The position numbers and the translations under genes were made by a program. Of a stretch of DNA of 46,434 nucleotides, positions 21,624 through 42,974 are shown piece after piece. The stretch lies in NCBI RefSeq assembly GCF_013004605.1, contig NZ_JABEMA010000002.1, positions 1 through 46,434 of the forward strand, written 5' to 3'. Position 1 is the first letter of the stretch; every line of letters begins with the position of its first letter. Source of the DNA: Pseudokineococcus marinus. GTDB taxonomy: Bacteria; Actinomycetota; Actinomycetes; Actinomycetales; Quadrisphaeraceae. Below the pieces are notes generated by a model. That model was given only the letters and a program-made list of their open reading frames with translations. It was not told the origin of the DNA and made no database searches.

Positions 21624-21783
21624 CGGGAGCCGCCGGTCGACGACGAGCTCTCGACCGTGCCACGGGGTGCCTTGCAGGGCGCCGGCCGCACCTCCGGCCC
21701 GTCGTCCACCGCCCGAGCCCGGCGCCGCAGCCCGCACGTGCGACCAGCCGGACCGTCCGTCAAGGCAACCTTGTGCCGTCACG

Positions 21784-21820: not shown

Positions 21821-21870
21821 CACTCGTCGCCCTCGCTGACACCGACGTCGCACCGCTGAGGAGACCGCCC

Positions 21871-24149: not shown

Positions 24150-24174
24150 GGACGGCGACGACGGGGCGGCTCCC

Positions 24175-25143: not shown

Positions 25144-25144
25144 C

Positions 25145-26038
25145 GTGGCGGTCCACCCGTCGACGCGACCCACCGCCGCACGGGGCGACCGCCGCCCCGC
25201 GCCCCGACGCTGGGTCGGCACGGCGCTGCTCACCCTGCTGGCGGCCGTCATCGGCGTCGCCTTCCTGCTGCCCGCCGTCTGGATGCTGCTCGGCTCCCTG
25301 CGCCCGGGCAGCGAGGTCATCGGCAGCGTCAGCCCGCTGGGCTGGCGGACGCTCGTCCCCGACACCTGGACGCTCGACAACTACAGCGCCCTGTTCGGCC
25401 AGCTCGGCTTCGGGCGCAGCCTGGCCAACTCGCTGCTCGTGGCCCTGGTGTCCGTCCTGCTGGGCCTGGCGCTCTCGGTGCCGGCCGCGTACGCCCTGAC
25501 GGTGCTGCGCTTCCCCGGGCGCGAGGGCGTCTTCGCCCTCCTCGTCGTCGGGTTCATGGTGCCGTTCGAGGCCATCGCCATCCCCATGGCCCAGCTCTTC
25601 ACGCAGTGGCACCTCGACAACACCTACGTGGGCCTCATCCTCCCGGGCATCGGCAACGGGCTGGCCATCTTCAACCTGCGGCAGTTCTTCCGCGGGGTGC
25701 CGTCGTCGCTGCGCGAGGCGGCCATCGTCGACGGCGCGGGCGAGTTCCGGATCATGACGCGGCTCTACGTGCCGCTCAGCACGACGGCGCTCATCAACTC
25801 GGCGCTGCTCATCTTCCTCGGGCAGTGGTCGGCGTACCTGTGGCCGCTCCTGCTCGTCTCCGACCAGGAGAAGCAGGTGGCCGCCATCGCCATCGCCCGG
25901 ACGTTCTCGGACACCGAGTTCAACTTCGGGCAGATGTTCGGCGGAGCCCTGCTCATCTCGGTCGTGCCCGCCGTCCTCCTGCTGCTCCTGCAGCGCTACT
26001 TCGCCACCTCCATCGCCAGCAGCGGGGAGAAGGGGTGA
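25145..26038 (+). CDS. ABC transporter permease, MalG/UgpE type
   Basis: 297-residue second permease with six membrane segments and the EAA loop REAAIVDGAGEFRIMTRLYV. It starts with GTG directly after the stop of the first permease and ends overlapping the ribokinase start by 4 nt, so the stoichiometric importer genes and the kinase are translationally linked. Length and topology are typical of CUT1 importers. Confidence 0.93.
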   Translation: MAVHPSTRPTAARGDRRPAPRRWVGTALLTLLAAVIGVAFLLPAVWMLLGSLRPGSEVIGSVSPLGWRTLVPDTWTLDNYSALFGQLGFGRSLANSLLVALVSVLLGLALSVPAAYALTVLRFPGREGVFALLVVGFMVPFEAIAIPMAQLFTQWHLDNTYVGLILPGIGNGLAIFNLRQFFRGVPSSLREAAIVDGAGEFRIMTRLYVPLSTTALINSALLIFLGQWSAYLWPLLLVSDQEKQVAAIAIARTFSDTEFNFGQMFGGALLISVVPAVLLLLLQRYFATSIASSGEKG

Positions 26039-26961
26039 GCGCCGGCGCCACGGGTCCGGCCGCGGTCACGGTCGCCGTCGTGGGGTCGGTGCACCAGGAC
26101 CTGCACCTCCACGTGGGAGAGCTGCCCCGGCCGGGGGAGACCCTCATGGCCCGCGAGTGGGGCCGGGCCCCGGGCGGGAAGGGGGCCAACCAGGCCGTCG
26201 CCTGCGCGACGGCGGGTGCGGGCACGGCGATGGTCGGCGCCGTCGGGGACGACGCGGCCGCGGACGCGGTCGTGGCGGCGCTGCGGACGGCGGGCGTCGA
26301 GGTCGCCCTCGTGCAGCGCCTGGCGTCCCGGGCGACGAGCACCGCGGTCGTCACCGTCGCCGCGGACGGCACCAACAGCATCGTCGTCGCGGCCGACGCG
26401 AGCAGCGCCCTCGCCCCCCGGTCGGTGGAGGCCGCCCTGGCCGAGCTGCCGGCCGTGGCCGTGGTCCTCAGCCAGGCGGAGGTGCCGGAAGCGGTCGTGC
26501 GCGCCGCCGCTGCCGGCGCTGCCGCGGCGGGAGCCCGGACGGTGCACAACCTCGCGCCGTACCGCCCCGTCGGCGCGGCGCTGCTCGCCTGCTGCGACCC
26601 GCTCGTCGTCAACGAGGTCGAGGCCGCGTCCCTGGCGCACGACCTCGGGCTCGACGCGGACGCACCCGAGACGCTGGCCGGCCGGCTCGCGGACGCCTGC
26701 GCGTCGGTCGTCGTGACACTGGGAGCCCAGGGCGCGGTGTGGGCCCGGGGCGCCGAGGGCGGCCACGTGCCGTCGCCCGAGGTGCCGGTCGTGGACACGA
26801 GCGGGGCGGGTGACGCCTTCGTCGGCGCCCTGTGCGCATCCCTGGCTCGTGGTGACGCGCTGCCGGAGGCGTGCTCCGCCGGCGTCGCGGCGGGCGCCCG
26901 TGCCGTGCAGCACCGCGGCGCGCAGACGGCGGCCCCACCAGCCGGGGCGACACTGATCTGA
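26035..26961 (+). CDS. rbsK: Ribokinase, PfkB family
   Basis: 308-residue sugar kinase that would convert D-ribose to ribose-5-phosphate. The first PfkB signature is APGGKGANQAVACATAG; the second is VDTSGAGDAFVGALCASLAR with catalytic Asp in GAGDAF. NLAPYRPV and VVNEVEA match ribokinases, which use NxAP and xxNExE segments. GTG start overlaps the upstream permease. Following a nucleoside hydrolase, it completes a route from nucleoside through ribose to the pentose phosphate pool. The sugar specificity is inferred from context and overall similarity. Confidence 0.88.
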   Translation: MSAGATGPAAVTVAVVGSVHQDLHLHVGELPRPGETLMAREWGRAPGGKGANQAVACATAGAGTAMVGAVGDDAAADAVVAALRTAGVEVALVQRLASRATSTAVVTVAADGTNSIVVAADASSALAPRSVEAALAELPAVAVVLSQAEVPEAVVRAAAAGAAAAGARTVHNLAPYRPVGAALLACCDPLVVNEVEAASLAHDLGLDADAPETLAGRLADACASVVVTLGAQGAVWARGAEGGHVPSPEVPVVDTSGAGDAFVGALCASLARGDALPEACSAGVAAGARAVQHRGAQTAAPPAGATLI

Positions 26962-27977
26962 TGGCGATCACCCGGGCGGACGTGGCGCGGACGGCGGGCG
27001 TCTCGCCGGCCGTCGTCAGCTACGTGCTCAACAACGGCCCGCGGCCCGTCTCCGCGAGCGCCCGCGAGCGCGTCGAGGAGGCCGTGCAGCAGCTGGGCTA
27101 CCGGCCCAACCGCCTCGCGAGGGCGCTGCGCGCCAACCGGAGCCGGTCGATCGGCATGCTCATGCCCGACCACGTCAACCCGCACTTCGCCGAGCTGGCC
27201 CAGGCCGTCGAGGACGAGGCCTTCGCCCGGGACCAGGTGCTCCTCTTCGGGACGACGAGCAACGCCGCCGAGCACGAGGGCACGCACCTGAGGGCCCTCC
27301 TCGACCACCAGGTCGACGGGCTGCTGCTCATCTCCTCCCTGCAGCACCCCGACACCTCCGGCCTCGAGGGCGCGGGCATGCCGACGGTGCTCCTGGACCG
27401 TGCACCGGCGGGCTCGCGCGACAGCACCGTGGCCATCGACAACCGCGGCGCCGCCCTCACGGCCGCACGACACCTGCTCTCGCACGGGCGTGTCCGCCCG
27501 GCGGCCGTCCTCGGGCCGCGGGGCATCAGCGCCGTCGTCGAGCGGCAGGCGGGGTGGGCCGAGGCGCTGGGGGAGGCCGGGCTCGAGGAGGTCGTGCCGC
27601 CCGAGCACGAGCCCTTCTCGCGCGAGGGCGGGCACGCGGCGGCGCAGCGGCTGCTGCAGCGGCCACCTGAGCAGCGGCCCGACGCCCTCTTCGTCGCGAG
27701 CGACGCGCAGGCCATCGGGGCCGTGCGCGCCTGCCACGACCTCGGTCTGCGGGTCCCGGAGGACGTGGCGCTCGTCAGCATCGACGGGTCCTCGGCGGGC
27801 CGCTTCATGACGCCGTCCATCACCTCCGTCGTCCAGGACGTCGCCGAGATCGCCCGCGTCGCCGTCGCCACGCTGCTCGAGCGGATCGAGCACCCCGACG
27901 CCCCCGCCGTCCACGAGGTGCTCGGGGCGGAGCTGCGCCTCGGTGAGTCCTGCGGCTGCGGGCGCGACGGCGCCTGA
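26961..27977 (+). CDS. LacI-family regulator of the nucleoside/ribose operon
   Basis: 338-residue repressor with an N-terminal helix-turn-helix (TRADVARTAGVSPAVVSYVL), hinge (LGYRPNRLARALRANRS) and a PurR/RbsR-like effector domain (SIGMLMPDHVNPHFAELAQ, then VALVSIDGSSAGRFMTPSIT). Its ATG shares one base with the ribokinase stop, so it is produced as the last gene of the operon it probably controls. The double operator at 21784-21820 is the likely target. Ribose, a nucleoside or a ribose phosphate is the expected inducer, by inference. Confidence 0.93.
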   Translation: MAITRADVARTAGVSPAVVSYVLNNGPRPVSASARERVEEAVQQLGYRPNRLARALRANRSRSIGMLMPDHVNPHFAELAQAVEDEAFARDQVLLFGTTSNAAEHEGTHLRALLDHQVDGLLLISSLQHPDTSGLEGAGMPTVLLDRAPAGSRDSTVAIDNRGAALTAARHLLSHGRVRPAAVLGPRGISAVVERQAGWAEALGEAGLEEVVPPEHEPFSREGGHAAAQRLLQRPPEQRPDALFVASDAQAIGAVRACHDLGLRVPEDVALVSIDGSSAGRFMTPSITSVVQDVAEIARVAVATLLERIEHPDAPAVHEVLGAELRLGESCGCGRDGA

Positions 27978-28164: not shown

Positions 28165-28726
28165 ATGACGGACGCAGCCACGGTCCCGGACGCCCTCCCG
28201 TCCTCGACCCCGGCGCCGACCACGGGCGCCCAGCGGTCCTTCGTCGAGCAGGTGCTCCGCGAGCTCGTGCTCCGCGACCCCGACGGCGCCGCGCTCGCCC
28301 GGGTGGACGCCGCCTCGGCCGCACGGGCCGCGGTCGACCACGTGCTCGACGCGGCCGAGCGGTGGACCGACCACCTCGGGGGGTTCTACGACGTCGACGG
28401 GGTGCGGCGACTGCTGTCGCGCTCCGGTCGGCTCGTCTCCAAGCAGGCCGTGAGCAAGCGCCGGGGCCTGCTCGCGCTCACCACGGGGTCGGGGCGGGTC
28501 GTCTACCCGACCTTCCAGTTCTCCGGTGGCTCGCCGCTGCCCGGGCTGGACGCCGTGCTGCGCGAGGTCCCCGAGCCCCTGGTGTCGAGGTGGACCCAGG
28601 CGTCCTGGCTCGTGTCCCCGCAGCCGGACCTGGGCGGCACGACGCCGGTGCAGCTGCTGCGCGAGGGGGGGGGCGGACGTGGTCGTCGCCGCGGCCCGCG
28701 ACTGGGCGAGGGCGCTGGCCGCCTGA
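28165..28726 (+). pseudogene. MbcA/Xre-type antitoxin-like protein, broken at a G9 tract
   Basis: A second antitoxin-like gene of the same layout as 17630-18298: DNA-binding-like middle (VDGVRRLLSRSGRLVSKQAV, then SKRRGLLAL), FPxFQ-like strand (VVYPTFQFSG) and a toxin-binding end (WTQASWLVSPQPDLGGTTPV). After LLRE the frame runs through a G9 tract (28665-28673) into a long Arg-rich nonsense tail. With one G fewer it would end ADVVVAAARDWARALAA at a TGA at 28726, just as homologous proteins do (186 residues). No RES toxin follows. Start ATG 28165; two TTGACG boxes (28112 and 28135) lie upstream. Homopolymer sequencing error is at least as likely as real decay. Confidence 0.7.
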
Positions 28727-29139
28727 TGCCGGCGACCGCACCGCCGGCGTCGCTCGTGGGACTGCCTCGGCATGAGGCCCGGGCGCGCGGGCCCTCGGCG
28801 CGACCCTCGATGTCGTGGCGAGCGACGTCGTCGATGCGGGCGATCTCCTCGTCGGTCAGGCGCTGCGGCTGCGCTGCGAGCCGCTCCACCCATGCGCGGA
28901 CTGGCACCTCAGTGACACGGCCGGGGTGCGACCGGGTGGACGAGCGTCACGGCCGGGTGGACTCGACGTGACCGTTCGTGGGCGACCGCGACGACCGTCT
29001 AGCGTGCCCGGCTGCACGGAGGTGCACCCGCCTCTCGTGCGCCGGGTCGGACCTCCCGCCCCGCCGGCTCCCGGAGGTGCGGTCGTGCGTGTGCTGCCTC
29101 ACCTGCCCGCGGGGGAGTTCGCCGAGCTCGGACACGGCC
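28727..29139. other. Stretch without an intact gene, holding a NERD remnant
   Basis: 413 bases between the broken antitoxin-like gene and the PH-like membrane protein. The minus strand carries the C-terminal piece of a NERD protein (listed separately). A TCTAGCGT box near 28998 could be a promoter for the next gene. Short open frames on the plus strand, including one ending at 29150, show no recognisable features. Confidence 0.5.
28809..28925 (-). pseudogene. C-terminal remnant of a NERD-domain gene
   Basis: The minus strand reads VTEVPVRAWVERLAAQPQRL followed by TDEEIARIDDVARHD. This closely follows the tail of the intact NERD protein at 20626-21597 (VVVTGRRRLARWLGAQPPRL, TDDEVARVHDVARRS). 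The nuclease core is absent upstream and no stop occurs where the intact protein ends, so this is a fragment left by deletion. It lies next to the broken antitoxin-like gene. Confidence 0.6.
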
Positions 29140-29898
29140 ATGTCGTCTGACGCAGGCGGCGACCACTCCGGGCGCGGGCGGGTGACCACCGCGTGGGGCA
29201 GCGTCGGGGAGAAGGCGGGCACGCACCCGCTGCCGCTCGTGCTGGCGGGAGCGGTGCTCTTCCTGGGGATGGGTGGCGCCCTCGTCTCGATCATGACCAC
29301 CCACCCGCTCCCCGGCGTCATCGGGCTGGCCATGCTCGCCCTCGGCGTCGGCGTGCCGGTCACCCTGGTGCTGGAACGGCGCTGGAACCGCACGAGGCCC
29401 GGTCCCCAGCTGTCCACGGACCCGGAGACGGGAGCGCCGTCGACGCTCGTCGCCTGCGCCCCGTGGACCGGGGCTCAGCGCTGGATCGGCGCTCTGGTGC
29501 TGCTCGTCCCGCTCGGTGCCGCCGCGGTCGCCGCGCTCGCCTCGGGACGCGCCGCCACCGCCGTGGTGGTCGGTGCCCTCGCGGTCTTCGTCGCGCACCT
29601 GCTGGCGCCCTGGGTCGCGGCCGAGGGCGTGCACCTCAGCGCGAGCGGCATCACCGTCCGCCACTACGGGCGCCCCCGCCACGTCGCCTGGGACGACGTC
29701 CGGGACGTGGACATGACCATGTGGTTCGAGATCGAGCGGGTCCGAGGACGACGCGTGCGCTTCACCCCCCGGCAGCTGGCCGTCCGCTGGGTCCACCTCT
29801 GGGTCCACATCCGTCTCTGCCTCGTGGAACCCGACCGGAGGCTGCTCCTCGGGACGTCGGCCTCGCTGGACCCCGGCCTGTGGGGTGCCCGGTCCTGA
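29140..29898 (+). CDS. Membrane protein with a PH-like C-terminal domain, hypothetical
   Basis: 252 residues. After a short polar N-terminus come two hydrophobic pairs, about 26-70 (LPLVLAGAVLFLGMGGALVS, IGLAMLALGVGVPVTLVLE) and 115-155 (WIGALVLLVPLGAAAVAALA). The C-terminal third (LSASGITVRHYGRPRHVAWD, DVRDVDMTMWFEIERVRGRR, VRFTPRQLAVRW) looks like a bacterial PH-type domain facing the cytoplasm. ATG 29140 is chosen; the frame is open further upstream but Pro/Arg-rich. No specific function can be given. Confidence 0.7.
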   Translation: MSSDAGGDHSGRGRVTTAWGSVGEKAGTHPLPLVLAGAVLFLGMGGALVSIMTTHPLPGVIGLAMLALGVGVPVTLVLERRWNRTRPGPQLSTDPETGAPSTLVACAPWTGAQRWIGALVLLVPLGAAAVAALASGRAATAVVVGALAVFVAHLLAPWVAAEGVHLSASGITVRHYGRPRHVAWDDVRDVDMTMWFEIERVRGRRVRFTPRQLAVRWVHLWVHIRLCLVEPDRRLLLGTSASLDPGLWGARS

Positions 29899-30134
29899 CC
29901 GGGCGACGTCCGTCGTCGAGCGGGGCGCGCCCGGCCGAGGAGCTCGTCGTGCCGCGAGGACGGCGTCGACCGGGACGCGGCGACGAGCTCGACGCAGACC
30001 AGCGGTCGACCGACCGCCTCGCGCCGTCCAGGGCTCTCGACCGCAGGACCGTCGGGGCGATGCGAGCGGCTGCCGCACTCCACCCGTCCGCGTGAGCGGA
30101 CGTGGCGCCGGCCCTGTGCGGACGCGTGCTCGCC

Positions 30135-30140
30135 TACGGT
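30135..30140 (+). promoter_or_regulatory. -10 box of the lipoprotein gene
   Basis: TACGGT ends 6 nt before the GTG start at 30147, implying a leaderless mRNA; no ribosome-binding site is present. Confidence 0.45.
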
Positions 30141-30146
30141 CCTGAC

Positions 30147-30785
30147 GTGCGCACACGCCACCTCGCGACCGTGGCCGCCCTCGCCCTGGTGCTGCCGGTG
30201 GTGGCCGGGTGCAGCGACGACCCGCCGGCACCTGAGCCTGTCCGCAGCGTCGACGGCACGCCCGTGGAGCTCGACGACGCGGCGCTGGCCGGGTACGCCG
30301 CGACGGAGTACGAGGACGCGTGGCTCTGCGGGACCCTGCCCCCGGAGATCGCGGACCCGGTGCTCGCCGGAGCCGGACGGGTCGAGGCGGTCGGCTTCTT
30401 CTTCGAGGGCGACTGCCGTGTGACCCGGGCCGAGGACGACGGCACGGAGGTCGAGGTGCTCGACGTCCGCACGAGCGGGTCCACCGAGCTCGTCCCCGAC
30501 GCCGCCCGCGGGGTGCTCGACCAGCGCGTGAGGATCGACCTGTCGGGCGGCGTCGACGGGTGGGTGGTCGAGGTGCCCCCCTTCTTCGGCTCTGCTCGAG
30601 GCGTCGTGGCCCGCGCCGTCGGCCGCACCAGCGAGGGTGAGCCACGGGCGGTCGCCGTCCACCTCACGCCAGGCACGGACGGTCGTGACCTCGCGGCCGA
30701 CGCCGAGGTGCTCCTGCGCTACTACGTGCTGCGCGGGGACGTCACGGCGCCGCTCGTCGGTCAGGCGACTCCCTCTCCACGCTGA
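30147..30785 (+). CDS. Hypothetical lipoprotein
   Basis: 212-residue exported lipoprotein. The N-terminus RTRHLATVAALALVLPVVAG is a signal peptide ending in the lipobox VVAGC. The mature part starts Ser/Asp/Pro-rich and contains two further cysteines (WLCGTLP and GDCRVTR) that could form a disulfide outside the cell. No known domain recognised. GTG 30147 fits both the signal peptide and a -10 box just upstream, and there is no ribosome site, suggesting leaderless translation. It converges with the MFS gene, whose stop is 62 nt away. Confidence 0.75.
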   Translation: MRTRHLATVAALALVLPVVAGCSDDPPAPEPVRSVDGTPVELDDAALAGYAATEYEDAWLCGTLPPEIADPVLAGAGRVEAVGFFFEGDCRVTRAEDDGTEVEVLDVRTSGSTELVPDAARGVLDQRVRIDLSGGVDGWVVEVPPFFGSARGVVARAVGRTSEGEPRAVAVHLTPGTDGRDLAADAEVLLRYYVLRGDVTAPLVGQATPSPR

Positions 30786-30847
30786 CCGACTGGGCGAGCG
30801 GCGTGCTCGTCGTCGGGCAGCACCGCAGGCCGGACCGACGGACCGGC

Positions 30848-32092
30848 TCAGGACGCCGGGTGGTCGCCGGGTCCGCCGCGGCCCGCCGCTCGCCGCCCAC
30901 CCGCCGGGCTGCCGGCCAGGAGCAGCAGCACCGCGACGAGCAGCGTGAAGGGCACCACGGCGACGTCCAGGGGGACGACGAGGAGCAGCGCCCCGAGCCC
31001 GAGCACCGGCAGCGCGAGGCCGCAGTAGGCGGCGGTGAGCACCGCGCGGGCGCCCGTGACGCCCGCCCGTTCCGTCGCCTCGGCGAGCACTCGGGCGATC
31101 AGCACCCCGCTGCCGGCCCCGGCGACCGGCCCGGACAGCAGCAGCAGCCACGGCAGACCCGCGAGCAGCGCCGCGCCGGCGGCGGCGAGGCCGGCGAGGA
31201 GGGCCACGTGCGCGCCGGCGCCGGCACGGGTGCTCCGGGCGCCCAGGACGAGGGGAGCCGCGGCGCCCGCGAGGAAGACCGCCGCGATCCCCGCGCCCGT
31301 CACCGCCACGCCTCCCGGCGCACCGACGAGGGCGAACGTCTCGGCCGCCAGCGCCCCGAAGAAGCCCGTCACCGCGAAGGCGCAGAAGGCCCGGAGGCGA
31401 GCGGGCGCGGGCGCACCGGAGGAAGCAGTCGGGCGTCCGCGCGGGTCGGCTCCGTCGAGTACGGGCGCCGAGGTCTCCGGCGTCCGGGCCAGCGGCACGA
31501 GCAGCACGAGCACGACAGCGCCGACCACCGCGTAGGGGAGGTGCAGCGGCAGTGGGGCCAGGGCCGCCAGGACGCCGGCGAGGAGCGGGCCGAGCCCCAG
31601 GCCGGCCATGGCCATGGCGCCGGTGACGGACGCCCACCGCTGCCGCACCCGTGCGGGTGCGCCCTCGGTGAGCGAGCGGACGACGACCGGCGCCGTGGCC
31701 ACCAGCGCCCCGACACCCACACCGCAGACGACCCGGCCCACGGCGAGGCCGACGACCCCGGGCGCCAGGGCCAGGACGGCAGCGGCGACCACCTCGACGG
31801 CCGCGGCTGCCAGCAGGACGCGCCGCTGGCCGAGGCGGCCGACCAGCGCGGGCGCCGCCCCGAGGCCAGCGAGCACGCCGCCGGCGAAGACGGCGAAGAC
31901 GGCCGCCGTCGCGCCCGCCGCCAGGCCGTCGCGGGCGGCGTACAGCGGGAAGAGGGGTGTCGGCGCCGTCGACAGCCCCGTCGCTGCCACGACGAGGGTG
32001 ACGACGACGGCGGGCCGCCCCCGGCGCGCGGGGGGCGCGTCGGGGGCGGCGTCCGCGGCGGGGCCGGTGGCGAGCGTCGGGCCGCTCGTCAT
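30848..32092 (-). CDS. MFS transporter, drug-efflux-like
   Basis: 414-residue major facilitator with about 12 hydrophobic helices. The first helix ends TAPTPLFPLYAARDGL, followed by the loop-2/3 region LVGRLGQRRVLLAAAAVEVV and GRVVCGVGVGALVATAPVVV, consistent with the DHA1-like branch. ATG overlaps the end of the upstream permease-hydrolase gene by 4 nt (ATGA), so it is co-expressed with it. It might export a product of that hydrolase or an unrelated compound; the substrate is unknown. Length is slightly above 400, as expected. Confidence 0.86.
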   Translation of the reverse strand: MTSGPTLATGPAADAAPDAPPARRGRPAVVVTLVVAATGLSTAPTPLFPLYAARDGLAAGATAAVFAVFAGGVLAGLGAAPALVGRLGQRRVLLAAAAVEVVAAAVLALAPGVVGLAVGRVVCGVGVGALVATAPVVVRSLTEGAPARVRQRWASVTGAMAMAGLGLGPLLAGVLAALAPLPLHLPYAVVGAVVLVLLVPLARTPETSAPVLDGADPRGRPTASSGAPAPARLRAFCAFAVTGFFGALAAETFALVGAPGGVAVTGAGIAAVFLAGAAAPLVLGARSTRAGAGAHVALLAGLAAAGAALLAGLPWLLLLSGPVAGAGSGVLIARVLAEATERAGVTGARAVLTAAYCGLALPVLGLGALLLVVPLDVAVVPFTLLVAVLLLLAGSPAGGRRAAGRGGPGDHPAS

Positions 32093-34266
32093 CGCGCCGT
32101 GGCGACGGGGCGCCGACGGGCCGCCACCGACTCCCACGCGCCCAGCAGGTCCGACGAGCTCGTGACGAGCCCGAGATGCAACGACACCATCGCCAGCGCG
32201 GCGGCCTCGAGGCGCTCGTCCGTCCCGCGGACCAGGTCCTCGAGGACGACGACCCGGTAGCTGAGGTTGTTGGCGTCGAACGCGGTGCTGAGGATGCAGC
32301 AGTCCGCCATGATCCCGTCGAGCACCACGGTGCGGGCGCCCATCTGGCGCAGGAGGAAGTCGAGGTCGGTGGGGGAGAAGGCCGACAGGCGCTTCTTGCC
32401 CGTCACGACCTCGTCCTCGGGCTCCACCTCGGTGGTGAAGCGCGTCCACCGGCTGCCGGCCAGCGCGTGGTCGGCGACGCCGGGGATGGGGCCCACCCAC
32501 TGCGGGAAGGTCGTGCGCCAGGCGCTCGGGATGCCGCGCACGTCGTCGACCCCGGAGGCGCGCACCTCCGAGCGCACGTGGACGACGGGCACCCCGGCCG
32601 CCCGAGCGGCGCGGTGGAAGGCGTCGACGGGGCCCACGACCTCGCGGCCCCGGGGGGCGGGGCACGGGCAGTCGGGGTCCTCGGACAGGTGGCCGTCGTG
32701 CATGTCGACGGACACGACGACGGTCGTGGCCGGGTCGAGCCAGTCGGCGTAGGCGCCGTCGACCGCCAGTGGCCGGGCCTCGTCGTAGACGCGGTGGTGG
32801 AGAGGGGTGGCCACGGGCCAGCCCTCCGTCGTCGCAGGTGCGGGGGAGACGCGCCCGGCACGGCGCTCGCGCGAGCGCTCGAGGCGGGGGCGCGCGAGGA
32901 CGTTGAGCAGCACGTGCAGGACGAGGAGGAGGACGACCCCGACCATCATCGGGCTGCTGACGAGGCCGGAGACGGTCTCGGGGGCGGTCGCCATGACGTC
33001 GGCGGGCAGGAACTGCGCCCCGAGGGCCACGACGACGGACGGGCCGACCACCGCGAGGTTGATGTCGTCCCACTCCACGCCGGAGAGCATCTGGATCCCG
33101 CCGACGACGATGCTGCCGAAGAGGATGGTGGAGGCGGCGGCGAGCACCGGGCCCGGGAGACCGGCGACGAAGAGCCCGACGGCCGGCACGAAGGCGAGGG
33201 CGACGGCGAAGACGCCGGCCGCCATCGTCACGTAGCGGCTGCCGACACCCGTGACCCGGACGATGCCCGCGTTCTCGGGGTACGACGTCGTCCCGATGCC
33301 CCCGAAGAGGGCGCCGACCGCCGTCCCGGCGAACTCGGTGAAGAGGCCCCGGTTGACGCGCTGGCGGTCGACGCGCTGACCCGCCCACCCGCCCACGAGG
33401 GAGTACATGCCCATCGACTCGGTGCCGGCCTGGAGGAAGGCCAGCAGCATGAGGAGCACGGCCGGCCAGGCGACGCCGAAGCCGAAGGGCAGCAGCTCCG
33501 GGAGGCCCACGAGCTCGGTCGGCAGCGACGCGCTCCAGACGCCCAGGAGGCCGGCCGTCGCCGTCCCGGCCGCGATGCCCCAGACGACGGCGCCGCGCTT
33601 GGCGAGGCCCTGGCGTCCGAGCACGAGGCAGGCGACGACGACGAGCGCCGTCACGGCGGCGACGGCGAAGCTCGGCGCCCCGAAGGAGGGCGTGCCCGCG
33701 GTGCCGAACCAGCCGGGCAGGCCGATGGCCGCGAGCTGCGCGCCGATGATGACGAAGAGCGAGCCGAAGACCACGGGGTGGGAGGCCACCGCCGACACGT
33801 GCCCCATGAGCCCGAGGCGGCCCACCGGGATGCTCAGCGCCATGAAGACGAGTCCCGCGACGACCATCGAGCCGAACGCCGTCCCGAGCCCGTAGGCCGT
33901 CCCCGCGCTGACGATCGCGAGGAAGAAGGCGGCCGTCGGACCCTGGACGATCGGCAGGCGCAGCAGGCGGCTCGACTGCAGGACGGTCACCACGCCCGTG
34001 AGCAGGAAGCAGGCCTGGACGATCTGCCCGACCTGCGCCACCTCGAGCTCCAGAGCGCTGCCGATGAGCACCGGGAAGATGAAGATGCCCGTGAGGGCGA
34101 GCAGGTGCTGGGCGCCGAAAAAGGCGGTGCGGCCGAGAGGGAGGCGGTCCTCGGGCAGCACGGCGAGCACCCGCGACGGGGCGGTGGGCGCGACGGGAGG
34201 TGCGGCAGGGGCGGGGGCGGAGATCGGGGGTGCGCTCATCGGGAGGCCTGTCTCTGGGAGGGGCAC
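32089..34266 (-). CDS. NCS2 purine/pyrimidine permease fused to isochorismatase-type hydrolase
   Basis: 725 residues in one uninterrupted frame. Residues about 45-460 are an NCS2 (UraA/UapA/xanthine) permease: FFGAQHLLALTGIFIFPVLI, IVQGPTAAFFLAIVSAGTAY, AFLQAGTESMGMYSLVG and IGTTSYPENAGIVRVTGVGS. Residues about 485-725 are a cysteine hydrolase of the isochorismatase superfamily with Asp521 (VVSVDMHDGHL), Lys624/625 (TGKKRLSAF) and Cys657 (GIMADCCILSTAFDANN) as the likely triad. The two are usually separate proteins. GTG 34266 or ATG 34239 may be the start. An in-frame GTG at 32814 has GGAGGG 7 nt upstream, so a free hydrolase could also be made. It probably imports and deaminates or opens a nucleobase-derived amide; the substrate is unknown. 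Confidence 0.85.
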   Translation of the reverse strand: MPLPETGLPMSAPPISAPAPAAPPVAPTAPSRVLAVLPEDRLPLGRTAFFGAQHLLALTGIFIFPVLIGSALELEVAQVGQIVQACFLLTGVVTVLQSSRLLRLPIVQGPTAAFFLAIVSAGTAYGLGTAFGSMVVAGLVFMALSIPVGRLGLMGHVSAVASHPVVFGSLFVIIGAQLAAIGLPGWFGTAGTPSFGAPSFAVAAVTALVVVACLVLGRQGLAKRGAVVWGIAAGTATAGLLGVWSASLPTELVGLPELLPFGFGVAWPAVLLMLLAFLQAGTESMGMYSLVGGWAGQRVDRQRVNRGLFTEFAGTAVGALFGGIGTTSYPENAGIVRVTGVGSRYVTMAAGVFAVALAFVPAVGLFVAGLPGPVLAAASTILFGSIVVGGIQMLSGVEWDDINLAVVGPSVVVALGAQFLPADVMATAPETVSGLVSSPMMVGVVLLLVLHVLLNVLARPRLERSRERRAGRVSPAPATTEGWPVATPLHHRVYDEARPLAVDGAYADWLDPATTVVVSVDMHDGHLSEDPDCPCPAPRGREVVGPVDAFHRAARAAGVPVVHVRSEVRASGVDDVRGIPSAWRTTFPQWVGPIPGVADHALAGSRWTRFTTEVEPEDEVVTGKKRLSAFSPTDLDFLLRQMGARTVVLDGIMADCCILSTAFDANNLSYRVVVLEDLVRGTDERLEAAALAMVSLHLGLVTSSSDLLGAWESVAARRRPVATAR
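32812..32827 (-). promoter_or_regulatory. Possible internal ribosome site and start for the hydrolase domain
   Basis: On the minus strand GGAGGG (32827-32822) is followed after 7 nt by GTG (32814-32812), in frame with the fusion gene and exactly at the permease/hydrolase boundary (residue 485). It would give a 241-residue free hydrolase. Confidence 0.4.
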
Positions 34267-34281
34267 GGGGCCGTCTACAAC

Positions 34282-34304
34282 CGGAGTGGATTTTCTGCAG
34301 TCCG
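34282..34304. promoter_or_regulatory. Inverted repeat upstream of the permease-hydrolase gene
   Basis: CGGAGTG (34282-34288) and CAGTCCG (34298-34304) form 7-bp arms with one mismatch and a 9-nt AT-rich spacer, in the gap between the XRE-cupin regulator and the permease-hydrolase gene. A candidate operator for that regulator. Confidence 0.4.
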
Positions 34305-34386
34305 ATTGTTGCTACGGCGTTGCGCGCTCCCAGGCCCGCGTAACGGGCGTGTGTCCCGCTCCCCCTCCCGACCCGCCGCCTCGACC

Positions 34387-34995
34387 TCAGAGACGTCGGA
34401 CGTTCACCCAGACCGCACGGGTGACGCCGGGGGAGGCGTTGCGGAGGAGGTGCGCCTGCTTCGCCTCGTAGCTGATCGAGTCGCCCGCCTCGACGACGTG
34501 CACGGCGTCCGGCAGCTCGACCTCCAGGACGCCCTCCAGGACCACGCCGTGCTCCTGCCCGGGGTGCTGCGAGGGGCGCGTCGCGTGGCTGGTGGCCGGG
34601 GGGTACTCGTCGACGTAGACCTCGACGTCCTGCTCGGGCCGGAAGACGGCGAGGCGGCGGACGACGCCGCCCGGCGTCTGGTCGACGATCTGGTCGGCGA
34701 GGCGCACCACGGGGGAGCCCTCCTCGGCCGGTGCGGCGAGCAGCGTCGTCACGCGGACGCCCAGGCCCTCGGCCAGGCGGTGGAGGGTCGCCAGCGAGGG
34801 CGCCGTGCGGCCGCGCTCGACGGTCGAGAGCATCGAGGCGCTGAGCCCCGTGGTCTCGGCGAGCTCGGCGAGGGTGAGCCCGCGCTTGGCGCGCAGCGCG
34901 CGCACCTGCTGACCGAGGCCCGCGACGAGCGCGCCGAGCCCGTCGTGCCGGCCAGCGCCCTCGTCGGCGCTGGGCTCGGGCGCGGTACCGCTCAT
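34387..34995 (-). CDS. XRE-cupin transcriptional regulator
   Basis: 202 residues. The N-terminal helix-turn-helix is in QVRALRAKRGLTLAELAETT and GLSASMLSTVERGRTAPSLA (about 30-68). The C-terminal cupin_2 domain is in PSQHPGQEHGVVLEGVLEVE and VVEAGDSISYEAKQAHLLRN, with His residues at the usual barrel sites. XRE-cupin proteins sense small molecules and often control adjacent transport and catabolic genes. Same strand as, and upstream of, the permease-hydrolase gene, with an inverted repeat in the gap (34282-34304). The ATG start is well placed before the first helix. Confidence 0.9.
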   Translation of the reverse strand: MSGTAPEPSADEGAGRHDGLGALVAGLGQQVRALRAKRGLTLAELAETTGLSASMLSTVERGRTAPSLATLHRLAEGLGVRVTTLLAAPAEEGSPVVRLADQIVDQTPGGVVRRLAVFRPEQDVEVYVDEYPPATSHATRPSQHPGQEHGVVLEGVLEVELPDAVHVVEAGDSISYEAKQAHLLRNASPGVTRAVWVNVRRL

Positions 34996-35044
34996 GGACG
35001 TCCAACCTAGGCGTCACCGGGCCGTCGTCTGAGGGCGGCGCGGG

Positions 35045-35752
35045 TCAACCGCCGCCGGTCACGTCGACCAGCCCGGCCCGCAGCCCCCACAGCACGACCT
35101 GCAGCCGGTCGCGCGCGTGGGTCTTCTGCATCAGCCCGGTGAGGTGGTACTTCACCGTCGTCGGCTCGACGAAGAGCCGCGCGGCGATCTCGGTGTTCGA
35201 CAGGCCCTCCGCGAGCAGGCGCAGCACGTCGAGCTCGCGGGCGGTGAGGTCGACGCCCGGGGCGGCCGCCGAGGGGCGCGCCGGCGCCGCCCGTCGGTCG
35301 GTGAACTCGCGCAGGATGCGGCGGGTCAGCCGCTGGTCGAGCGTGCCCTGCCCGGCGGCGACGGAGCGGACGGCGCCGAGGAGCGTGGCCTCGTCGGCGC
35401 CCTTGAGGAGGAAGCCGGCGGCGCCCGCCTCGAGCGCGGCGAAGACGTCGTCGTCGACGTCGAAGGTCGTGAGGACCAGGACGCCGACGTCGAGGCTCGG
35501 GTCCGCGGTGATGGCGCGGGTCGCGGCGATGCCGTCGGTGCCGGGCATGCGGATGTCCATGCACACGACGTCGGGGCGCAGCTCGCGGGTGAGGCGGACG
35601 GCCTCGGCCCCGTCGGCGGCCTGGCCGACGACCTCGACGTCGTCCTCGGCGCCGAGGATGACCGCGAGGCCGGCGCGGACGACGGCCTGGTCGTCGGCGA
35701 CGAGCAGCCGGATCACGCCCTGGTCCGCACCGGGGCCCTCGCCGGGGCTCAT
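35045..35752 (-). CDS. Response regulator, NarL/LuxR type
   Basis: 235-residue two-component response regulator. The receiver domain has the acidic pair in LLVADDQAVVRAGL, the phospho-acceptor Asp in DVVCMDIRMPGTDGI, Thr in VLVLTTFD and Lys in GFLLKGAD. A linker is followed by the LuxR helix-turn-helix (LTARELDVLRLLAEGLSNTE, then TTVKYHLTGLMQKTHARDRL). ATG overlaps the histidine kinase stop by 4 nt. It would control genes in response to the partner kinase, probably including the ABC transporter of the same gene set. Confidence 0.93.
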   Translation of the reverse strand: MSPGEGPGADQGVIRLLVADDQAVVRAGLAVILGAEDDVEVVGQAADGAEAVRLTRELRPDVVCMDIRMPGTDGIAATRAITADPSLDVGVLVLTTFDVDDDVFAALEAGAAGFLLKGADEATLLGAVRSVAAGQGTLDQRLTRRILREFTDRRAAPARPSAAAPGVDLTARELDVLRLLAEGLSNTEIAARLFVEPTTVKYHLTGLMQKTHARDRLQVVLWGLRAGLVDVTGGG

Positions 35753-36999
35753 GTCGGGGTGCTCCTCTCGGTGACGGGGACGACCAGCTCGTTGCGCCAG
35801 CCGCCGTCCGGCTGCGGGCCGGTGACGAGGCGGGCGCCCACGAGCGCCGCGCGCTCGGCCATGCCCGCCAAGCCGTAGCCCTGGCCGCCCCCGTGGTCGA
35901 CGGGGGCGACCGCGGCGGGCCCGTTGGTCACGGTGACGCGGACGGCGTCGGGGGCGTGCTCCACCCCCACCGCGCAGGCGGCGCCGGGCGCGTGGCGCGC
36001 GCTGTTGGCCAACGACTCCTGCACCATCCGGTAGGCGGCGGTCTCCGCGAGCGGGCTCAGCGGCCGCGCCCCGCCCGTCTCGGCGTGCTCGACCCGCTGC
36101 CCCCGCGCCCGCGCCTCCTCGACGAGCGCGGCGACCGCCGCCAGCGACGGCGTCCGCCCCGGCGCTCCGGGGCCGCCGTCCGGGCCGTCGTCGTCGCTGC
36201 GCAGCAGCCCGACCGTCCGGCGCAGGTCGGCCAGCGCGGTGCGGGCGTCGTCCTGCAGGCCGGCGAGCACCTCGCGGGCGCGCTCGGGGTCGCTGCGCAT
36301 CAGCGCGGAGGCGGCCTGGGCGCTGACGACGATGCCCGACAGGTGGTGCCCGGCGATGTCGTGCAGCTCGCGGGCGAGCGCCGTCCGCCCCGCCTGCAGC
36401 TCGCGCTGGGCGCGGTCGCGGCGCTCGCGCTCCGCCGCCTCGGCGCGCTCGCGCTCCAGCTGCACCAGGCGCTCGCGGGCGCGCTGCCGCTCGGCGACGA
36501 CGACGGGGAGGCCGTACTGCAGCGCCGCCCGCCCGGGCACGAGCAGCGCGACCTCGAGCAGCGGACCGCCGACGGCGAGGTAGGCGACGCCGCCGACGAC
36601 CGACGTCACCACGACGGCCGCGCCGAGCACCCACCGGGCGGTGCCGACGCCTGCGCCGCGAGCCCGCCGCGCCACGACGTAGGTGGCGACGACGACGGCG
36701 AGCGACCCGAGGCCGAGCTGCCCGCCCGAGGTCCCGAGCAGCACGGCGTCCAGCACGACCACCGCCACGAGCGCCGCGACCGGGTGCGTGCGTCGGGGGA
36801 GGAGCGCCACCGCCTGCAGCGCGACGAGCACCGCGTGGCCGAGCGGCGGCAGGGGACCGGGCGGCGGCGGCTCGACGTCGAGCGCGTCCACGAGCGGGTA
36901 GGCGACCGCCGTCACCAGCACGAGCAGCGGCGGGGTCAGCCACCACAGCGTCGACGCGGCCGCCCGGCGCCGGGCGGGTGCTGCGGGCGGCGCGGTCAC
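35749..36999 (-). CDS. Sensor histidine kinase, NarL-partner (HisKA_3) type
   Basis: 416-residue membrane kinase. Five to six hydrophobic segments occupy the first 170 residues; a charged coiled-coil-like stretch (RERLVQLERERAEAAERERR) leads to the H-box ELHDIAGHHLSGIVVSAQAA with the phosphorylated His. The HATPase region shows AYRMVQESLANSARHAPGAA (N-box) and GYGLAGMAERAALVGARLV (G-box). GTG 36999 is used; its frame is open further upstream but that part overlaps the beta-lactamase-like gene. The signal is unknown; a downstream overlap ties it to its regulator. Confidence 0.92.
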   Translation of the reverse strand: MTAPPAAPARRRAAASTLWWLTPPLLVLVTAVAYPLVDALDVEPPPPGPLPPLGHAVLVALQAVALLPRRTHPVAALVAVVVLDAVLLGTSGGQLGLGSLAVVVATYVVARRARGAGVGTARWVLGAAVVVTSVVGGVAYLAVGGPLLEVALLVPGRAALQYGLPVVVAERQRARERLVQLERERAEAAERERRDRAQRELQAGRTALARELHDIAGHHLSGIVVSAQAASALMRSDPERAREVLAGLQDDARTALADLRRTVGLLRSDDDGPDGGPGAPGRTPSLAAVAALVEEARARGQRVEHAETGGARPLSPLAETAAYRMVQESLANSARHAPGAACAVGVEHAPDAVRVTVTNGPAAVAPVDHGGGQGYGLAGMAERAALVGARLVTGPQPDGGWRNELVVPVTERSTPT

Positions 37000-37067
37000 G
37001 GGGGCATCCGACCACGGCCGGCGCCGCCCCCGGTCGGGGACGGCGCCGGGGGCGTCCGCGCGGTGGG

Positions 37068-38288
37068 TCAGGCCTCGCACAGCGCGGCGTCGAGGGCGTC
37101 GATCGCCAGCCGGTAGCTGTCGAGCAGCGCCTCGTCGTCCTCCGCGTCCACCACCGCGAACGGCAGCGCCGTCACGGCGATCGTCACGGCCGTCCCGTCC
37201 GGGCCGACGGCGTTGCGGGTGTGCGTGCCGGGGATGTCGCCGCCGTGGCCCCACGCGACGCCCCCGCAGCTCAGGGGCAGCGCCTGCCACCCCAGGCCGT
37301 AGGCCGCCTCGGGGTACAGCTCGTCCGGCGCCGGGACGGTGCGCTGCATCTCGGCCGTGCTCGCCTCGGACAGCAGCGTCCCGTCGAGGACCGCCCGCAT
37401 GATCGCGTTCATCTCGCTCGGGGTGGAGACGAGCGCGCCCGCCGCCCACGCCCACGACGTGTCCATCGCCGTGATGTCCTCCAGCTCGCCGGCCTCCTGG
37501 GCGTGGTACCCGAGGGGGTGCTCGCCGCGGACGTCCCGCTCGCCGGGCGCCGGCAGGTAGGTGTGCTCCAGGCCGAGCGGTGCGACGACGCGCTCGTCCA
37601 CCTGCTCGTGCAGCGGGCGCTGCGTCACGCGCTCCACCAGCAGGCCGAGCGTGAGGTAGTTCGTGTTGGTGTACGCGAACGCCTCCCCGGGAGCGGCGGT
37701 CGCGGGCTCCTCGAGGGCGACGTCGAGCATGTCGCGCGGGGAGATCCAGCGGTCGCGCACGGTGAAGGGGTCGGCGGCGACGGCGGCGGTGTACTCCGGC
37801 AGGCCGCTGGTGTGCTTCAGCAGGTCCCGCACCGTGATGGCGGTCCCGTCGACGCCGTCGCCGCGCAGCAGGCCCGGAAGGTAGGTCTCGACCGGCTCGT
37901 CGAGCGCGACGAGGCCCTCCTCGACGAGCTGGAGGACGACGACGGCGACGACCGGCTTGGTGTTGCTGCCGACGCGGACCTCGCCGTCGACAGGCACGGG
38001 GGCTCCCGTCGCCAGGTCCCCGGTGCCGACGGCCGCGTCGACGCGGGTGCCGTCGGGGCTCGTCACCGAGGCCAGGGCTGCGGGGTAGCCGGCGTCGACG
38101 ATCGGCTGCAGCCGCTCCTCGAGGCGCTGCTGGGCAGGGTCCTGCGGCTCGGTGACGCCGGTGGCGTCCGCGCTGGTCCCGGCGAGCTCGGGCAGGGGGT
38201 CCGTCGTGCACGCGCCGAGCCCCAGGGCGAGGGCCAGTGCGCCGCTCGCGGCGAGGGTGGTGCGGCGACGGGTCGTGGGCGTGGTCAT
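37068..38288 (-). CDS. Beta-lactamase-family serine hydrolase lipoprotein
   Basis: 406-residue exported serine hydrolase of the class C/DD-peptidase-like family. A signal peptide and lipobox LGLGAC (Cys27) anchor it outside the cell. The SxxK motif is S108-N-T-K111 (VGSNTKPV), the Tyr motif is YTNTNYLTLG, and HGGDIPG is the KTG-equivalent. ATG 38288 with GAGAGG about 8 nt upstream. It lies 44 nt after the ABC permease gene and 68 nt before the kinase, so it is probably part of that operon. Real substrate, such as a D-amino-acid peptide or an antibiotic, is unknown. Confidence 0.9.
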   Translation of the reverse strand: MTTPTTRRRTTLAASGALALALGLGACTTDPLPELAGTSADATGVTEPQDPAQQRLEERLQPIVDAGYPAALASVTSPDGTRVDAAVGTGDLATGAPVPVDGEVRVGSNTKPVVAVVVLQLVEEGLVALDEPVETYLPGLLRGDGVDGTAITVRDLLKHTSGLPEYTAAVAADPFTVRDRWISPRDMLDVALEEPATAAPGEAFAYTNTNYLTLGLLVERVTQRPLHEQVDERVVAPLGLEHTYLPAPGERDVRGEHPLGYHAQEAGELEDITAMDTSWAWAAGALVSTPSEMNAIMRAVLDGTLLSEASTAEMQRTVPAPDELYPEAAYGLGWQALPLSCGGVAWGHGGDIPGTHTRNAVGPDGTAVTIAVTALPFAVVDAEDDEALLDSYRLAIDALDAALCEA

Positions 38289-38332
38289 TTCGGTGCCTCT
38301 CGGGTCGGCGTGCGGGGAGGGCGATCGACGGG

Positions 38333-39154
38333 TCACAGGTCGCGGCGGCGCAGCACGCCGGCCGCGGCGGCGAGGGCGAGCGCCGCGAGGGCGACGAGCG
38401 CGGCAGCCGCGGTCGTCGGGGCCCAGGCGGAGGGGCCTGCGCCCACGGCGGCGTGGGTGAGCGCGACCGGCATCACCTGCGCCCACGCCGGCGCGCTGCC
38501 GGTGAGCAGCTGCGCGGTCCCCGCGACGAGCGGCTCGCCGAGGAGGACCGCGAGCATCACGAGGACGCCGGCCAGCTGGCCGCGGACGAGCGTGCCGACC
38601 GCCAGGCCGAGCAGCAGCACGCAGCAGACGGCGAGGACGCCGCGGGTGAGCAGCGCCGCCACCTCGACCGGGGCGACGGCGAGCGGCACGTCCGCGACGG
38701 CGAGCGCGACGAGCAGGGTCCCGGCGCTGAGGGCGGCGAGGACGGCGCCGAGCGCCAGCCCGAGCACGGTGAGCGCGACGGCTTTCGCGCCGACGACGTC
38801 CCACCGGCGGGGTGCGGCGAGGACGGCGCCGACGATGCCGCCGTGGCGGTGGTCGCCGGTGCCGGCGAGGACCCCGAGCAGCGCGAGCGCGAGCACGGGC
38901 AGGCCCAGGGAGCCGCTGCCCGTCGTGGCCCCGAGGGGGTCGAGCGCCCCCCGCTGCACGAGCGCGGAGGCGAGGTCGGCCGCGGGGAGGTCGTCACCGA
39001 GGAGCTCTGGCCCGGGGCCGACGTCGCCGCGCGCCAGGGCGGGCAGGAGGAGGACGACGGCGAGCTGGGTGAGGAGCAGCCCGACGACGGAGACGGCGGC
39101 GGCGACCCTCGTCGCCGTCGTGGTGGTGAGGGCCAGGAGCTCGGCGCGGATCAT
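38333..39154 (-). CDS. ABC transporter permease
   Basis: 273-residue membrane protein of the ABC-2 type with about six hydrophobic segments: near residues 15-40, 90-115 (GSLGLPVLALALLGVLAGTG), 125-150, 170-205, 215-235 and 245-268. A Gly/His-rich loop (GTGDHRHGGIVGAVLAAPRR) follows the second helix, a pattern common in ABC-2 permeases of this type. ATG overlaps the ATPase stop by 4 nt. It forms an exporter with the ATPase encoded just upstream; the substrate, possibly a peptide or lipid-targeting compound, is unknown. Confidence 0.87.
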   Translation of the reverse strand: MIRAELLALTTTTATRVAAAVSVVGLLLTQLAVVLLLPALARGDVGPGPELLGDDLPAADLASALVQRGALDPLGATTGSGSLGLPVLALALLGVLAGTGDHRHGGIVGAVLAAPRRWDVVGAKAVALTVLGLALGAVLAALSAGTLLVALAVADVPLAVAPVEVAALLTRGVLAVCCVLLLGLAVGTLVRGQLAGVLVMLAVLLGEPLVAGTAQLLTGSAPAWAQVMPVALTHAAVGAGPSAWAPTTAAAALVALAALALAAAAGVLRRRDL

Positions 39155-39921
39155 CGGCGGACTCCCGTCCGGTCGGAGGAGGTGCCGGCGAGCCCGAGGT
39201 AGAAGTCCTCGAGCCGGCCGCCGGAGGCGGCGAGGGCGTCGGCCGTCGGCAGGGCGGCGGTGACGCGCCCGCGGTCGAGGACGACGACGTCGTCGGCGAC
39301 GCGGGCGACGTCGGCGAGCAGGTGCGAGGACAGGAGCACCGCCCCGCCGGCGTCGGCGAAGGCCCGCAGGCGTCCGAGCAGCCAGTGGGTGCCGGCGGGG
39401 TCGAGGCCGTTGGCGGGCTCGTCGAGGACGAGGACGCGCGGCTCGGCGAGCAGCGCGGCGGCGACGGCGACGCGCTGCGCCATGCCGAGGGAGTAGGAGC
39501 CGGCGCGGCGGTCGGCGTCGGCGCTCATGCCGACCTCGGCGAGGACCTCCTCGACCCGGGCGGCGGGGACGTGGGCCCGGGCGGCGGCGATCCGCAGGTG
39601 CTGACGGCCGGTGCGCGACGGGTGCAGGCCCCCGGCGTCGAGGACGGCGCCGACGCGGCGGGCGGGGGAGGGCAGGTCGCGGTAGCGGCGGCCGAGGACG
39701 AGCGCCTCGCCGGCGTCGGGGGCGACGAGCCCGAGGAGGGCGCGCAGCGACGTCGTCTTGCCGGCGCCGTTGGGGCCGAGGAGCCCGACGACGCGTCCGG
39801 CGCCGACCGTGAAGGAGACGTCGTCGACACGGACGCGGCCGTGGGTGGTGACGCGCAGGCCGCGGGCCTCGAGGGCCGCTCCGGGTGCGGGTCGGGCGGG
39901 GGGTGGCTGGGTGATCTCCAT
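39151..39921 (-). CDS. ABC transporter ATP-binding protein
   Basis: 256-residue ATPase. Walker A is GLLGPNGAGKTTSLRALLGL, the signature is YSLGMAQRVAVAAALL (LSGGQ-equivalent), Walker B is RVLVLDEPANGLDPAGTHWL and the H-loop is LLSSHLLADVARVADD. This layout is typical of ABC-2 export ATPases involved in antimicrobial resistance or lipid export. ATG 39921 follows a GC-rich gap with no obvious ribosome site. First gene of a likely five-gene minus-strand operon running through permease, hydrolase, kinase and regulator. Confidence 0.94.
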   Translation of the reverse strand: MEITQPPPARPAPGAALEARGLRVTTHGRVRVDDVSFTVGAGRVVGLLGPNGAGKTTSLRALLGLVAPDAGEALVLGRRYRDLPSPARRVGAVLDAGGLHPSRTGRQHLRIAAARAHVPAARVEEVLAEVGMSADADRRAGSYSLGMAQRVAVAAALLAEPRVLVLDEPANGLDPAGTHWLLGRLRAFADAGGAVLLSSHLLADVARVADDVVVLDRGRVTAALPTADALAASGGRLEDFYLGLAGTSSDRTGVRR

Positions 39922-40353
39922 GCCGACGAGCCTGCTCAGCGGCGGGCGCCGGCACCCCCGCCGCGAGGACGGTCCGCCCTGGTCGGAAGGACAGTCCGTC
40001 CGGGCGATCAGCGAGCAGGCCGCCAACGGAGAAGGTGTGCGGACGACGTCGCGACGCTCGTGGACGGCCGCATCGGCGCGGTGGCCGCCGCGTCCGCCGT
40101 CGTCGCAGTGCTGCTCCTCACCGCCTCCGCCGCGCTCTCGGTGCGGTGGTACGCGCGCCGCGCCCTCTGAGGGAGCGGCTCCGGCAGCGGGCAGGGGAGG
40201 TGGCAGCACGTGGACGCCGTAGAGCACGACGAGGCGCTGCCACCCGGCGACGTCACGGCGTCCCGCGACCTCCACGCTCTCCGCGCGGATCTGCCGGTGC
40301 CGTCCCACCACCGGCCTCCCGGTCGCGAGAGCGCTCGGGCCTACGTTGGACCG
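39922..40353. other. Divergent intergenic region
   Basis: 432 bases between the ABC ATPase (minus) and the AGE-family gene (plus). It holds an imperfect inverted repeat GGACGG (39967-39972) / CCGTCC (39996-40001), which could be a regulator site for the ABC operon. It also holds a possible tiny open frame from GTG 40060 to 40170 with one hydrophobic segment (VAAASAVVAVLLLTASAAL), which lacks a ribosome site. Finally it holds the TACGTT box used by the next gene. The upstream in-frame extension of the AGE gene (from 40210) looks non-coding. Confidence 0.45.
40342..40347 (+). promoter_or_regulatory. -10 box of the AGE-family gene
   Basis: TACGTT ends 6 nt before the GTG at 40354, indicating a leaderless transcript and supporting this start over the longer open frame. 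Confidence 0.45.
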
Positions 40354-41610: not shown

Positions 41611-41709
41611 TCGAGAGCGGACTCCGAGGGACGGCACGCCGCTCCCGAGCCCTCGAGGTCGGCCCTCGTCGACGTCGTGCGGGGCCCTCGGGGAGCGCGG
41701 CCGGTCAGG

Positions 41710-42345: not shown

Positions 42346-42394
42346 GGTGACGACGATAGGCGCGGCGCGGGAGGGGAGTCGGGCCGGCCGCGCC

Positions 42395-42904: not shown

Positions 42905-42911
42905 AGCCGAG

Positions 42912-42968
42912 ACGCTAGGCCGGTGCAGCCGTCTCGCGCGGCCGATCCGTACGTCGTCCGCCTAACCT
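42912..42968. promoter_or_regulatory. Divergent leaderless promoters of DUF2000 and asnC-type genes
   Basis: On the minus strand TAGCGT (42917-42912) lies 7 nt before the DUF2000 ATG; on the plus strand TAACCT (42963-42968) lies 6 nt before the regulator ATG at 42975. Both fit leaderless mRNAs. Confidence 0.5.
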
Positions 42969-42974
42969 GCCGCC

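Follow-up and report, generated by a model that had tools for sequence, protein, structure and literature searches.

The NCS2 family of carriers includes UraA, which has 14 transmembrane segments and performs proton-coupled nucleobase uptake; in NCS2 carriers of solved structure the C-terminus is cytoplasmic. The commonest borders between prokaryotic genes are overlaps of -4 and -1 nt, and the part of the same source that we draw on also states that reinitiation falls steeply with distance and that overlapping genes arise most often when a stop codon mutates to a sense codon (PMC10666635). The portion of PMC3711429 used here gives as the signature of coupling a stop and a start co-located within 10 nt. 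Another kind of described system is the fusion of functionally linked neighbours, whose commonest partners are, according to the accessible part of PMC4921024, transporters, regulators and metabolic enzymes. Among the papers listed in searches of the open-licence literature, none concerned, by title and abstract opening, a fusion or a pair of NCS2 and isochorismatase-type genes.

The DNA analysed here, 46,434 nt of contig NZ_JABEMA010000002.1 of Pseudokineococcus marinus (the window), carries two adjacent genes in one frame, like the partners of the fusions treated in that part of PMC4921024; it differs from these in that the case concerns a single genome and one codon, with no conserved fusion lineage found. 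The likeness to coupled unidirectional pairs (ATGA or TGATG, as presented in the portions of PMC10666635 and PMC3711429 available to us) is seen in relatives of the locus, where permease and hydrolase genes overlap by 4 nt in 8 of 16 cases and the stop and start lie no more than 4 nt apart in 10 of 16, inside the distance of about 10 nt that marks coupled pairs. The window itself differs from such pairs: the hydrolase GTG is kept, the permease stop reads TGG, and without that stop termination-reinitiation is impossible at the junction. We consider it probable that a stop codon was lost here, in an operon whose permease ended in TGA, and that this codon is now TGG in the lineage of the window.

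Two domains in one frame

Positions 34266..32089 of the reverse strand form a single open frame of 725 codons, as translated from the window. Pfam finds PF00860 (Xan_ur_permease) at residues 47-421 of this frame (194.3 bits against a cut-off of 27) and PF00857 (Isochorismatase) at residues 515-704 (97.4 bits, cut-off 27), and with both matches above cut-off the preliminary description was right that one frame joins an NCS2 permease and an isochorismatase-type hydrolase. The closest relatives are the loci L020 (genome G010) and L013 (labelled Streptomyces sp. NP160), with 76-85% protein identity to the window. Because their permeases begin with MPAPA and MSAPA, respectively, sequence comparison makes ATG 34239 (716 aa) the likelier start of the fused gene over GTG 34266. 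The features of the locus are collected in Table 1.

Table 1. Coordinates of the fused gene, its parts and the flanking genes in the window
Feature	Position	Strand	Remarks
Fused gene, start ATG 34239 (probable), stop TGA 32091-32089	32089..34239	-	716 aa; 725 codons from GTG 34266
NCS2 permease part	32902..34239	-	PF00860; residues 10-455 of the 725-codon frame
Arg/Pro/Ala-rich tail, 28 codons, ending in TGG	32818..32901	-	free permease C-terminus in relatives
TGG codon, W483	32818..32820	-	aligns with the TGA that ends the permease in L020 and L013
GGAGGG, Shine-Dalgarno-like site of the internal GTG	32822..32827	-	-10.0 kcal/mol with the 16S tail
Isochorismatase-type cysteine hydrolase, own GTG start 32814	32092..32814	-	Pfam; D521, K624, C657 of the frame
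MFS transporter gene, downstream	30848..32092	-	its ATG and the hydrolase stop overlap as ATGA (32092-32089)
HTH-cupin (XRE-like) regulator gene, upstream	34387..34995	-	profile matches and tblastn

The permease is 79% identical to those of L013 and L020 (tblastn). Its best NCBIfam match is the PbuX/xanthine subfamily of NCS2 (TIGR03173; 240.3 bits, residues 51-455), but it differs from that subfamily in scoring below the curated cut-off of 414.15.

The preliminary description had also proposed a complete D-K-C triad in the hydrolase, and this was borne out: by phmmer, D521, K624 and C657 align with the D, the K and the residue mutated (C169S) in the biuret hydrolase structure 6xjm, and the three positions are invariant in 16/16 aligned hydrolases, window included. 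The alignment (A2) holds 16 sequences; L072 was omitted, its hydrolase being cut by the end of the locus, and the hydrolase of L014 was taken to end at 6033. Among solved structures the nearest by sequence is BiuH (6xjm; 9.4e-15), with RutB at 3e-10. The hydrolase as predicted by AlphaFold (mean pLDDT 80.7; below 65 at residues 81-120) gives TM-scores of about 0.6-0.87 against BiuH, RutB, maleamate amidase and further proteins of this fold, at 21-26% identity to BiuH and RutB in the fold comparison. The predicted model thus gives a clear fold assignment, one that leaves the substrate unspecified. While BiuH and RutB are among the closest proteins by sequence and by fold, with D, K and C aligned, the window hydrolase differs from both by this low identity and by scores under the family cut-offs, 58 of 370 bits for the BiuH equivalog NF050097 and 53 of 377.95 bits for the RutB equivalog TIGR03614; at these cut-offs both assignments were rejected.

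The part of the frame that links the two domains is less regular than had been described. Normal coding character was claimed throughout, but the 28 linker codons have a second-position GC of 0.75, compared with 0.51 on either side. Nor does coding character speak against a missed stop, since it would be the same for two adjacent genes with an altered stop codon between them.

The preliminary description had also noted, at the junction, an internal GTG preceded by a good ribosome site, and this holds up: GTG 32814, behind GGAGGG, has the strongest anti-Shine-Dalgarno pairing (-10.0 kcal/mol) of the 52 in-frame ATG, GTG and TTG codons counted from the 11th codon on, the pairing energy being computed without a spacing term. 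The hydrolase starts of L020 and L013 pair more weakly, at -3.2 and -3.8 kcal/mol. The strong site of the window is not special to the fusion, because L004 and L010, with their stops intact, have equally strong ones (-10.3 and -10.7), which speaks against taking it as a compensation for the lost stop. Two products are expected in the window since the stop is lost while GTG 32814 keeps its strong GGAGGG, and on this sequence evidence the cell probably continues to make free hydrolase in addition to the 716-aa fused product.

The junction in the window and in relatives

Relatives were sought in several collections. Scanning an 84,980-species collection for peptide patterns yielded 12 loci. With a threshold of E <= 1e-60, whole-genome searches found the window's own genome and 2 others in the order (396 genomes), the same two being found among 13 family genomes; and its own genome and 1 more in the class (394 genomes). 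In the genus of G714 there were hits in 6 of 297 genomes, and for the genus of G1024 in 3 of 66. Because the scan used exact peptide patterns, and because the order, class and G714-genus samples represent parts of larger groups, a rare fusion may escape these searches. With duplicates removed, 16 distinct relatives have permease and hydrolase in tandem.

Duplicates were recognised by coordinates or a shared handle (L041/L042 = L014; L073/L076 = L005; L021/L028 = L013; L091/L092 = L009; L081-L089 = L003, L004, L006, L010 and L011). The 16 leave out L011, whose permease ends in TGA with a hydrolase homologue about 7 kb off on the other strand; L075, with only an upstream hydrolase, 42% identical; L068 (Sodalis), with a hydrolase of another subfamily; and L070 (Novosphingobium), where only the permease was found. 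L072 was counted for the junction, and the 4-nt gap of L013 was measured from the GTG at 5457. Flanking genes are reported only if backed by Pfam, NCBIfam or tblastn, since mechanical gene calls on the flanks include doubtful frames.

The permease stop is TGA in all 16 relatives and none of them is fused. The hydrolase directly adjoins the permease in 13, with gaps of 3, 4, 11, 11 and 16 nt besides the eight 4-nt overlaps mentioned above; the other three (L005, L008 and L072) have an intervening gene. The preliminary description had suggested a search for the same fusion in relatives and held that a conserved stop, or a short gap between the two parts, would speak against it. This is what the relatives have: a kept stop in every case and, in 13, genes that overlap or lie no more than 16 nt apart. 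They lend no support to the notion of an established transporter-enzyme fusion. Among these 16 loci and the window a fused frame occurs in the window genome alone, so they contain no conserved fusion family. The idea that the fusion is common among relatives found no support either, since the pattern scan, the genome searches and the tandem-pair loci gave no fused relative; plasmids added no fused copy, 8 records having matched with none covering 80% of the query.

At the junction itself L020 reads GCC TGA CCC GTG, L013 reads GCC TGA CCCC GTG and the window reads GGC TGG CCC GTG. L020 is the only in-frame pair among the 13 directly adjacent ones, and since both its genes share a frame, a single stop substitution could fuse such a junction. 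The permease tail near the stop has diverged (28 codons in the window against 42 in L020), so that TGG and TGA are taken as homologous on the strength of the local match GGNCTGNCCC; in the alignment the TGG of the window and the TGA of L020 and L013 share columns, while the GTG of L020 is one column off. An indel near 32820 had been suspected earlier, but the site differs instead by a substitution, TGG against TGA. An indel is also a poor fit as the cause of the fusion because the other two frames of the window have no nearby stop, being open beyond the last helix for 166 and 685 codons. Judged from these alignments, the fusion is a one-genome, one-codon event at 32820-32818, or a base error.

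The second of these alternatives is that the genome really has TGA at the junction, with permease and hydrolase being two ordinary translationally coupled genes and the TGG arising in base calling or in the consensus. We regard this as less likely than the loss of the stop, but as a serious rival. It would explain why the window genome alone is fused while all relatives have TGA, and the source assembly, at 95% completeness, is a draft in 578 contigs. The contig also has other suspect bases. A Cys/Met PLP-enzyme gene (PF01053) is split over two window frames at 9218-9219 by comparison with G003, the extra base having mismatches next to it, and this frame-broken gene keeps an error possible, contrary to the earlier opinion that a sequencing error was less likely. 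Of the 14 mechanically filtered open frames of G003 that closely match the window, 10 do so over their full length in one frame and 3 only partly, one of the latter having 1-nt differences at 28090 and 28665 (28665 lying in a long G run). Other stretches shared with G003 have many small gaps, with 30 gap openings in 40311-45817 and 13 in 8114-9591. From the sequences, the frame break near 9220 and the differences at 28665 may be a fault in either genome, the window or G003. Against an error at the junction, a substitution would have to fall exactly in the stop codon, and in an assembled consensus substitution errors are less frequent than indels. Moreover, G003 is 96.4% identical to the window over the longest common stretch, and six adjacent genes at 21667-27977 have no frame-breaking indel against it, 132 of 184 mismatches lying at third codon positions. 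Finally, the tail that adjoins the TGG has already diverged from L020 and L013.

A probable stop loss and its expected products

If the stop codon was lost, which we take to be the better account, the ancestral operon would have had an NCS2 permease ending in TGA and a hydrolase start at or beside that stop, and ribosomes would have finished the permease and then restarted on the hydrolase. In the lineage of the window the stop of a TGA-CCC-GTG junction would have become TGG and, with the hydrolase already in phase, ribosomes would continue into a permease-linker-hydrolase protein. The retained GTG and strong GGAGGG would probably give free hydrolase by direct initiation. This account supposes a TGG that is truly present in the organism, production of both proteins and a nearly neutral effect of the fusion; the joined C-terminus would be cytoplasmic, as in NCS2 carriers of solved structure. 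That the locus represents a very young stop-loss fusion in which the hydrolase is made from one mRNA both tethered to the membrane, through read-on, and free, from its retained start, where relatives couple the two genes by termination-reinitiation, is in our view highly unlikely.

Even less probable is a selected bifunctional carrier-enzyme, in which the tether hands the imported substrate to the hydrolase. The tandem pair recurs across several actinobacterial genera, and Sodalis has an NCS2 gene with a 1-nt overlap onto another member of the isochorismatase family, whose product shares 23% identity with the window hydrolase over 141 residues. Both halves are constrained: in comparisons with L020 and L013 the permease has dN 0.13-0.14, dS 0.55-0.59 and dN/dS 0.23-0.24, the hydrolase has dN 0.10-0.15, dS 0.57-0.58 and dN/dS 0.17-0.26, and codon differences fall mainly at third positions. 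Such constraint fits two working domains, but it is equally expected for separate proteins and is uninformative on the fusion itself. Selection for the joined protein also sits poorly with the lack of any fused copy among the 16 relatives, with a linker that is short, diverged and atypical in composition, and with the fact that the hydrolase still has a strong start site of its own.

The operon, however it is read at the junction, is accessory: of the 9 family genomes compared, the same 3 carry both the regulator and the gene pair. The operon is absent from G003 at the syntenic place: the stretch 28776-40310 of the window has no match there, and G003 has about 10.6 kb of other DNA.

The conserved pair and its meaning

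A firmer finding than the fusion, on the sequences compared, is a conserved and tightly linked pair of NCS2 carrier and hydrolase genes in several actinobacterial genera. The linkage suggests that the pair serves one pathway, and from the conserved pairing it is plausible that the hydrolase acts on the cargo of the permease. By tblastn on flanks that differ in length, the regulator is present in at least 8 of 16 loci and a relative of the MFS gene in at least 7; the mycobacterial loci have neither in the flanks available.

In three mycobacterial loci a nitrilase-type gene separates permease and hydrolase. The intervening gene of L005 is a carbon-nitrogen hydrolase by Pfam, and those of L008 and L072 resemble it at the start. 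This gene between the pair gives the idea that the pathway substrate could be a nitrile- or amide-bearing nucleobase analogue. Separately, the permease of L011 has as neighbours a cupin protein, a carbon-nitrogen hydrolase and xanthine-dehydrogenase-like subunits, a setting that hints at use of N-heterocycles.

The stop-loss fusion, a small change in one genome or a base error, is no novel type of machine and is of small consequence in itself. More useful is the conserved pair, made up of an unassigned NCS2 carrier group and an unassigned cysteine hydrolase group, often joined by an overlapping stop and start and accompanied in about half of the loci by the HTH-cupin regulator. If the stop loss is real, the window and L020 would make a clean test of the role of the stop between coupled genes. 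If it is true and the tether speeds uptake by consuming the substrate, the two would be a natural before-and-after pair for why coupled genes fuse.

A variable region around the operon

The window was compared with the related genome G003, with which it shares stretches (96.4% identity over the longest). A cluster of nucleoside hydrolase, transport, kinase and regulator genes (Table), which is probably an operon for the uptake of nucleosides or sugars, is retained in G003, whereas the permease-hydrolase operon is absent from it. Window 28776-40310 (∼11.5 kb) shows no similarity to the syntenic place in G003, which holds ∼10.6 kb of other DNA. Judged by this comparison, the segment is a variable region, and the permease-hydrolase operon lies inside it.

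Features located in the window and at a mycobacterial locus
Feature	Location	Strand	Basis
Cys/Met metabolism PLP-enzyme gene (PF01053)	window 8206-9560	minus	comparison with G003
Nucleoside hydrolase, ABC solute-binding protein, two ABC permeases, PfkB kinase, LacI regulator	window 21667-27977	plus	
Nitrilase-type gene between permease and hydrolase	L005:5349-6281		Pfam

Frame differences from G003

The PLP-enzyme gene is whole in G003. In the window it is broken at 9218-9219 into parts that lie in two different frames, and there is an extra base with adjoining mismatches at this point relative to G003. The split gene could be either a pseudogene or the result of a sequence error. A nine-G run inside an open frame (window 28660-28675) differs from G003 in its length and adjacent bases, and a further single-nucleotide difference is found at 28090; both are possibly sequence errors.

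Related arrangements in other genomes

Three mycobacterial loci (L005, L008 and L072) carry a nitrilase-type gene between permease and hydrolase; the Pfam assignment of this gene comes from L005 alone of the three. On a Pantoea plasmid (L067) a nitrilase-type gene lies near a hydrolase 57% identical to that of the window. At the Intrasporangium locus (L011:3992-9251), a permease of the same group adjoins a cupin protein, a carbon-nitrogen hydrolase and xanthine-dehydrogenase-like subunits, and the hydrolase homologue is ∼7 kb from the permease on the opposite strand.

In Sodalis praecaptivus pHS1 (L068:5806-7952) the gene for an NCS2 permease overlaps by 1 nt with one of the isochorismatase family. 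Because the hydrolase of this pair belongs to another subfamily (23% identity to the window's), the pairing of NCS2 permeases with isochorismatase-family proteins may have arisen more than once.
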